A stretch of 64,000 nt of DNA from Cystobacter ferrugineus (GTDB lineage: Bacteria > Myxococcota > Myxococcia > Myxococcales > Myxococcaceae), in the NCBI RefSeq assembly GCF_001887355.1, contig NZ_MPIN01000011.1:249170-313169 (forward strand), read 5' to 3'. The notes below the pieces were generated by a model that did not search any database, was not told the DNA's origin, and saw only the letters and a list, made by a program, of their open reading frames with translations. The translations under genes and the position numbers were made by a program. Shown here in pieces: positions 40,613 through 41,833 of the stretch; positions within the stretch are counted from its first letter, which is position 1; the number at the start of each line of letters is the position of its first letter.

Positions 40613-41833
40613 ATGTCGATTGCGGCCCGTCAGCCCTACCTGCCGCCCGAGAGCGAGAGCCTGTTCGATCCGACGCCGCCGTGCCGGGCGCTGGACGAGG
40701 AGCCGGTGTACTGGTCGGAGGCCTCGCGGGGCTGGATCATCCGCCGGCACGAGGACGTGCTGGGTTGCCTGCGCGACGCGCGGCTGAGGGCCTCGGAGGA
40801 GATGCTGCTCGACGCGCGGCTGCGGGAGCTGAGCCCCGAGCTGGCCGAGGCCTTGCGCGAGACGTTCGCCGCGCATCCGTGGGAGGGACGTGAGGCCGTG
40901 CCGCTGCGCCGTCAGGCCGCTCCGGGCTTCATGCCCCAGGTGCTCGATGCCTGGCGTCCGGCCATCCGAGGCCTCGTGAAGCGGCTGGTGCGGCGGGGCG
41001 GGCAGGACTGGATGGACGCGGTGCGGGCGGTGTGCGTGCCCCTGCCCGCGCTCGTCCTCGCCGAGGTGTTCGCCCTTCCCGAGCGGGATCGGGAGCCCTT
41101 CCTCGCCTGGGCCTGGCAGCTCGCGGACTTCCATTCACCCGCCGCGGACGCGGATCGGGGCTCCCTGGCGCGGGCGGCCCTGGGGGCGACGCGTGGCTTC
41201 CTCGCCTGGCTGTCCCCCTTGCTCGAGGAGCGGCTCCGGGCGCCCGGCGCGGATCTGCTCAGCCGGATGCTCCAGGTCGAGCAGCCGGGAGCGCGCACCC
41301 CGGTGCAGCGGGTGTCCACGCTCGCCCTGTTCCTCGTCTCCGGGCTCGGGTTCGTGACGGATCAGCTCGGCAACGTGCTGCACGAGGTGCTCGCGCGTCC
41401 GGAGCTCTGGCGCACGCTCCGGGTGGATCGCTCGAGGATCCGTCCGGCCGTGGAGGAGGCGCTGCGCTTCCAGCCCGCGCGGCCCGTGCTGTACCGCACC
41501 GTCGGGGAGACCCTCACGCTGCGCGGGCGCACCCTGCACCCGGGCGAGGTGGTGCTCCTGGACGTGGCCGCCGCCAACCGGGATCCCCGGGTCTTCACCA
41601 CGCCGGAGCGCTTCGAGCTCCACCGGGACGCCGCCCGGCAGAAACACGTGACGTTTGGTTTCGGGCTGCACCACCGGCTGGACGCGGGGCTCATCCGTCA
41701 CCAACTGGAGTGCCTCCTCGAGGTGCTGCTGGAGGAGTTCCCCGGCCTGCGCCTGGACGAGGAGCGTCTGCCCCGGCTCAAGCGCCACGGTCCGCGGGTG
41801 CGCGGCTTCGAGACGCTGCCCGCGCGGTGGTGA
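40613..41833 (+). CDS. Cytochrome P450-like protein lacking the heme cysteine (probable pseudoenzyme)
   Basis: A 406-residue protein with the bacterial P450 fold and length, including ExxR (Glu282-Arg285 in VEEALRFQPARP) and the PERF segment (about 331-334). The heme-binding loop reads FGFGLHHRLDAG at 348-359. The position of the universal thiolate Cys is Arg355 (codon CGG at 41675-41677), and the Gly two residues later is Asp357. The I-helix, normally AGxET, reads SGLGF, so the acid-alcohol pair is also missing. The frame is intact with normal GC bias, so it is not a fresh pseudogene. P450 chemistry is unlikely; a binding or scaffold role, like the heme-free X-domain of glycopeptide synthetases, is an inference. 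ATG 40613 has AGGAAG upstream. Confidence 0.85.
   Translation: MSIAARQPYLPPESESLFDPTPPCRALDEEPVYWSEASRGWIIRRHEDVLGCLRDARLRASEEMLLDARLRELSPELAEALRETFAAHPWEGREAVPLRRQAAPGFMPQVLDAWRPAIRGLVKRLVRRGGQDWMDAVRAVCVPLPALVLAEVFALPERDREPFLAWAWQLADFHSPAADADRGSLARAALGATRGFLAWLSPLLEERLRAPGADLLSRMLQVEQPGARTPVQRVSTLALFLVSGLGFVTDQLGNVLHEVLARPELWRTLRVDRSRIRPAVEEALRFQPARPVLYRTVGETLTLRGRTLHPGEVVLLDVAAANRDPRVFTTPERFELHRDAARQKHVTFGFGLHHRLDAGLIRHQLECLLEVLLEEFPGLRLDEERLPRLKRHGPRVRGFETLPARW

Follow-up and report, generated by a model that had tools for sequence, protein, structure and literature searches.

To our knowledge, heme-less relatives of the cytochromes P450 with a known function seem rare, and the EryCII-type activators are the example considered here. 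These activators lack the heme-ligand Cys and bind a glycosyltransferase (PMC3391682). The same study describes EryCII as having a long extra N-terminal helix and no C helix, with the G-H region missing wholly or in part (PMC3391682). A literature search on heme-less or serine-ligated P450s returned nothing on point at the level of titles and abstracts.

In this study a 64,000-nucleotide stretch of Cystobacter ferrugineus DNA (the window) was analysed. A preliminary description of it had proposed that one gene encodes a P450-fold protein without the heme Cys. The Cys ligand is absent from this protein, which we have designated the Arg355 protein; this absence had a single origin and has been kept in all four species of the genus that were compared.

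Identification of a P450-fold protein with Arg at the heme-ligand position

The gene is an open reading frame on the forward strand between 40613 bp and 41833 bp, encoding 406 amino acids and containing ...KHVTFGFGLHHRLDAGL... in its translation. The protein matched PF00067 with 38.9 bits (cut-off 22.8), and the ExxR motif of the K helix (E282-R285) was present in all four orthologs, in agreement with the P450 fold, ExxR and intact frame of the preliminary description. Codon 355 (CGG, 41675 bp–41677 bp) encodes Arg at the position of the heme-thiolate Cys; this residue was Arg in all four members of the genus and Cys in 28/28 aligned relatives. The alignment and the codons also showed that codon 357 (GAC, 41681 bp–41683 bp) encodes Asp where Gly stands two residues after the Cys. 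The I helix reads SGLGFVTDQ, in which residues 243–248 (SGLGFV, 41339 bp–41356 bp) align with AGHxTT. Additionally, codon 95 (40895 bp–40897 bp) encodes Ala in place of a C-helix His that is present in 28/28 relatives.

These sites were compared in an alignment of 36 of the 37 collected rows (L042 was omitted), comprising the four Arg proteins, 28 Cys proteins of the subfamily and four distant P450s of the same genome. At least 25 of the 28 subfamily Cys rows shared the same residue at 121 sites, of which 70 were kept in all four Arg proteins and 23 were changed in all four. The changed sites included H95, A243, H245, T247, T248, C355 and G357, each held by 26–28 of the 28 relatives (A243 in 26, H245 and T247 in 28, T248 in 27). 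Among the four Arg orthologs H95 was replaced by Ala or Trp, H245 by Leu and T247 by Phe or Ser. Arg99, Arg295, His353 and His354 were invariant across the four, and R99, R295 and H353 are, we assume, usual heme-propionate contacts in P450s. Which of the changed sites contact heme was likewise presumed from what is typical of P450 structures.

The preliminary description had also reported that the oxygen-activating pair was missing and had counted three independent losses. The I-helix Thr is indeed lost, but position 246 in the 28 subfamily Cys rows was Thr (15), Leu (10), Val (2) or Ile (1) and never acidic, so the absence of the acid of the AGxET motif was inherited from the parent subfamily and a count of three independent losses is too strong. 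Judging by this alignment, the loss of T247 and of the flanking A243, H245 and T248 is proper to the Arg clade. From its sequence, the protein is taken to have lost heme-thiolate catalysis.

Conservation and phylogeny

Orthologs were found in 4/4 genomes of the genus examined, with 100% (the protein itself), 87%, 86% and 51% amino acid identity, and all frames were intact. The loop HHRLDAGL was identical in the four. A read error at codon 41675–41677, which had been raised as a possible explanation, is ruled out because the same residues recur in the three other genomes. Codon 355 was CGG in two of the four Arg rows and CGT in the other two, and codon 357 was GAC; among all 37 rows, the 33 with Cys used TGC (31) or TGT (2) at codon 355.

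A search of 145 genomes of the order (E<=1e-60, with the best 12 candidates per genome scored) revealed 36 matching places, and the loop could be read in all 36. Four carried Arg, all from the genus, and the other 32 close matches carried Cys, which agreed with the expectation that Arg355 would be conserved in orthologs. When a profile of the four proteins was run against 195 genomes of the phylum (best nine candidates each), the four orthologs scored 702–834 bits and the next place 458 bits. A search of the genome contigs with the four-protein alignment returned three distant P450s, 27–32% identical. When HRLDAG was searched for as a degenerate DNA pattern, hits arose in 92/96 genomes, and the pattern was far too loose to be informative.

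In a tree of the 37 rows the four Arg proteins formed one clade (support 100/99), which grouped with L026 and L027 (100/99) and was surrounded by Cys proteins. As the four form one clade within a Cys-bearing subfamily, the change is traced to a single ancestor. The stem of the Arg clade was long (0.43), the end branch of the fourth ortholog was flagged as long and the composition of the four Arg rows was flagged as unusual; for these reasons the exact sister of the clade is unsure (84/28 with L026).

P450 genes elsewhere in the genome and window

In the source genome (12.05 Mb, 42 contigs), 60 separate P450 places were distinguished, each with its own best frame, and all were read. The Cys loop was recognised by pattern in 55 and by eye in three more (L155, L160 and L161). 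The remaining two were the Arg355 protein and L143, the frame of which seems shifted after the K helix such that a Cys loop is invisible in it. As far as these places were read, the Arg355 protein is the sole intact P450 in this genome that lacks the Cys.

The window also encodes a second P450 (49384 bp–51474 bp, reverse strand), which matched PF00067 with 303.7 bits and has an ordinary Cys loop, FGGGQRQCIG. In 3/7 neighbourhoods of Cys relatives for which ORFs were listed (20 ORFs scanned), the relative adjoins an MCPsignal (methyl-accepting chemotaxis) protein of ~610–650 amino acids (L023:4869–9645, L110:9016–12356 and L109:9015–13601). Another P450 is encoded in the L023 neighbourhood, together with a terpene synthase.

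Selection on the Arg355 gene

Omega was estimated with a GY94/F3x4 fit on three species from many starting points. This gave 0.221 for the Arg355 gene and rejected a value of 1 (LRT 63.1), in line with the prediction that dN/dS would lie below 1; at 3.8 units of 2 lnL the lower limit fell between 0.14 and 0.16 and the upper between 0.28 and 0.32. A pseudogene was rejected on these values together with the intact frames in 4/4 genomes. An identical fit to three Cys paralog sets gave 0.142, 0.102 and 0.086, such that the omega of the Arg355 gene was 1.6 to 2.6 times theirs, and five neighbour genes gave 0.032–0.127 (aldehyde dehydrogenase 0.036, GTP cyclohydrolase II-like gene 0.050). The Arg355 gene is under purifying selection, yet looser than every gene compared. 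Omega values of 0.014–0.015 obtained with the 51% ortholog were set aside because that pair is saturated (t 12–13). The NG86 method, which ignores base composition, gave ratios of 0.38–0.62 within the trio and 0.71–0.80 to the fourth species.

Neutral drift was simulated along one lineage with 150 runs per setting (t 0.15–1.0). At least one stop arose in 93–100% of runs at a GC of 0.69 and in 54–69% at a GC of 0.92 (59–69% for t of 0.15–0.5); as an argument against decay these simulations are suggestive only at the higher GC.

Regional conservation and predicted structure

The identity of each region between the trio and the fourth ortholog was compared with 230 Cys pairs of 46–56% identity and expressed as a percentile among those pairs, a comparison that serves as a lead only because the twelve regions are uncorrected and the pairs are non-independent. 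The C helix (0.73, Cys-pair mean 0.57) lay at the 99th percentile and the G-H region (0.57, mean 0.42) at the 100th. They were followed by the ligand loop (0.72, mean 0.68; 77th), the C-terminus (0.64, mean 0.57; 72nd), D-F (0.46, mean 0.46; 58th), the I helix (0.60, mean 0.61; 42nd), the SRS5 strand region (0.49, mean 0.54; 33rd) and the L helix (0.49, mean 0.59; 19th). The lowest percentiles were those of B-C (0.24, mean 0.39; 2nd), J-K (0.31, mean 0.56; 1st), the meander (0.45, mean 0.67; 1st) and the N-terminus (0.38, mean 0.60; 0th).

An AlphaFold model of the Arg355 protein, made with an alignment of 36 sequences, had a P450 fold with a pLDDT of 84.2 and a pTM of 0.86. The pLDDT was <50 at residues 1–23 and ~75 in the ligand loop. 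A helix between residues 92 and 106, corresponding to the C helix, was present in the model and an extra N-terminal helix was not. When the same sequences were headed by the Cys relative L026, the model had a pLDDT of 90.9, with a well predicted A helix, a loop at ~85 and an unbroken I helix; the Arg355 model was thus the less confident of the two, chiefly at residues 1–30 and in the ligand loop. Foldseek and VIA-align placed CYP109, P450BioI and CYP107 structures next to the Arg355 model. VIA-align matched the model to CYP109A2 (5ofq) with a Z of 42.5 (2.5 A over 370 residues), and 9cjg, titled as a serine-ligated P450, matched with a Z of 38.8. No EryCII entry was found among the 50 matches listed for each program.

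Genetic organisation of the surrounding region

The gene order was the same in 4/4 genomes of the genus: two histidine kinases and a response regulator, a divergent DNA methylase (PF01555; 39404 bp–40126 bp, reverse strand), the Arg355 gene and a four-gene operon. The operon lies on the forward strand and encodes an aldehyde dehydrogenase of the methylmalonate-semialdehyde dehydrogenase type (42035 bp–43519 bp, its start being inferred), a GTP cyclohydrolase II-like protein (NF005536; 43560 bp–44813 bp), a DUF1688 protein (44806 bp–46002 bp) and a uracil phosphoribosyltransferase (46047 bp–46673 bp, with an approximate start). We take the GTP cyclohydrolase II-like protein to be of the 'URC1' type and the DUF1688 protein of the 'URC4' type. 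The unit running from the aldehyde dehydrogenase to the uracil phosphoribosyltransferase resembles the URC uracil pathway. Elsewhere in the window, 27505 bp–28803 bp on the reverse strand encodes a fusion protein in which a helix-turn-helix domain (HTH_17/MerR-like) precedes a citrate synthase domain.

DUF1688 was present in 63/145 genomes of the order, 59 of them outside the genus. The complete four-gene operon was found at 18/18 other-genus loci with upstream sequence, from 18 of those 59 genomes; a nineteenth locus (L092) had no upstream sequence and was not counted. No P450-like gene was detected by tblastn at 1e-10 in the stretch examined at any of these 18 loci. As the operon occurs elsewhere without a P450-like gene, the association of the Arg355 gene with it is positional, and a functional link to uracil degradation was rejected. 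The Arg355 gene was probably placed beside the operon within this genus.

A -10-like element, TAGGCT, precedes the aldehyde dehydrogenase gene (41992 bp–41997 bp, forward strand) and has look-alikes in other genera. An element of the form TA[GTC]G[AC]T was seen by eye upstream of the operon in 16/18 aligned rows, and a narrower expression matched 5/18. A promoter scan of 40100 bp–42150 bp revealed no consensus sigma-70 site. Our guess from these motifs would be that the operon has its own promoter, and the Arg355 gene may have its own transcript.

Discussion

We infer that the Arg355 protein is heme-free and has a binding role. That it is a P450-derived pseudoenzyme, without heme and retained for a binding or auxiliary role, is a reading to which we give roughly even confidence. 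A Cys-bearing P450 of the family would have lost the heme ligand and several of the usual heme-contact residues once, before the four species split, and the altered protein would have been retained ever since in a binding role without heme. By analogy with known P450-derived auxiliary proteins, its P450 fold would most likely dock onto another protein, stabilising or tuning that partner. The docking surface would differ from that of the known auxiliary proteins, as the best-kept parts here are the C helix and G-H region.

Other readings were weighed against this one. An emptied active site could still bind substrates of the former kind (terpenoids, perhaps), and the protein would then act as a heme-free sink or sensor. 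One Cys paralog (L002) clusters with a terpene synthase gene, the I helix is conserved at the level of Cys pairs and G-H above it; the B-C region, the usual pocket lining, is however among the least conserved, and the window ORFs that were scanned gave no match to a terpene synthase family; we regard such a ligand binder as unlikely. We think it quite unlikely that the protein still holds heme by its propionate-side residues, with a neighbouring His or water as ligand or with no protein ligand, whether its task were sensing, heme binding or a peroxidase-like reaction. The invariant Arg99, Arg295, His353 and His354 would suit such a protein, as would the natural serine-ligated P450 in the fold list, but the kept residues may serve the fold instead, His95, His245 and Thr247 have been replaced, and Arg is a poor iron ligand.

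The preliminary description had favoured a retained non-catalytic role over decay. Its claim of retention held, given four intact frames and an omega of 0.22, although the constraint is looser than in the Cys paralogs; the protein may have a ligand-binding, scaffold or regulatory role. Slow decay, in which catalysis has gone and the frame is still unbroken, would agree with the raised omega, the long stem, the N-terminus that is disordered in the model and the NG86 ratios to the fourth species. It would have to leave the gene intact in four species down to 51% identity with an identical RLD, against a rejected omega of 1 and neutral simulations that often yield stops at rates depending on GC, and we hold it to be very improbable. 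Membership of the glycosyltransferase activator family TIGR04515 (EryCII/DesVIII) was also considered, as TIGR04515 was the best NCBIfam match and the Cys is missing. The four orthologs scored 131, 127, 143 and 126 bits against a curated cut-off of 343, and the six Cys relatives that were scanned all scored higher (165–191 bits). Membership was rejected on these scores and we regard it as extremely improbable. The C helix is also present, and no glycosyltransferase family was found among the 39 distinct window ORFs scanned, although a partner could lie elsewhere.

Returning to the heme-free auxiliary protein, a separate conversion of this kind, with living Cys sister proteins in the same genomes, would let the step from P450 to binding protein be tested. 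It would also urge caution in annotating such Cys-less P450 genes as oxidases.

Comparison with known systems

CYP109/CYP107-type bacterial P450s, which are ordinary Cys-bearing heme enzymes, were among the closest to the Arg355 protein in solved fold and in sequence. Like the serine-ligated P450-G9 (PDB 9cjg), the Arg355 protein has a P450 fold without a Cys ligand; the ligand there is Ser according to the PDB title, whereas here the residue is Arg in 4/4 orthologs and further residues that are usual heme contacts in P450s are lost.

Like EryCII and DesVIII (TIGR04515), the Arg355 protein has a P450 fold and no heme-ligand Cys and, from its residues, is taken to be dead as a P450. Unlike EryCII, it retains the G-H region as well as the C helix, and its predicted structure has no extra N-terminal helix. 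The Arg355 clade also differs from the TIGR04515 activators in arising inside another, Cys-bearing subfamily. By analogy, the Arg355 protein may act like the EryCII-type activators though outside their family. We tentatively suggest, at somewhat less than even confidence, that a bacterial P450 was here converted separately, independently of the glycosyltransferase-activator family, into an auxiliary or binding protein that lacks heme. In this reading a conserved Arg-x-Asp has newly arisen where the heme ligand used to be, and the best-kept parts of the fold differ from those in EryCII.
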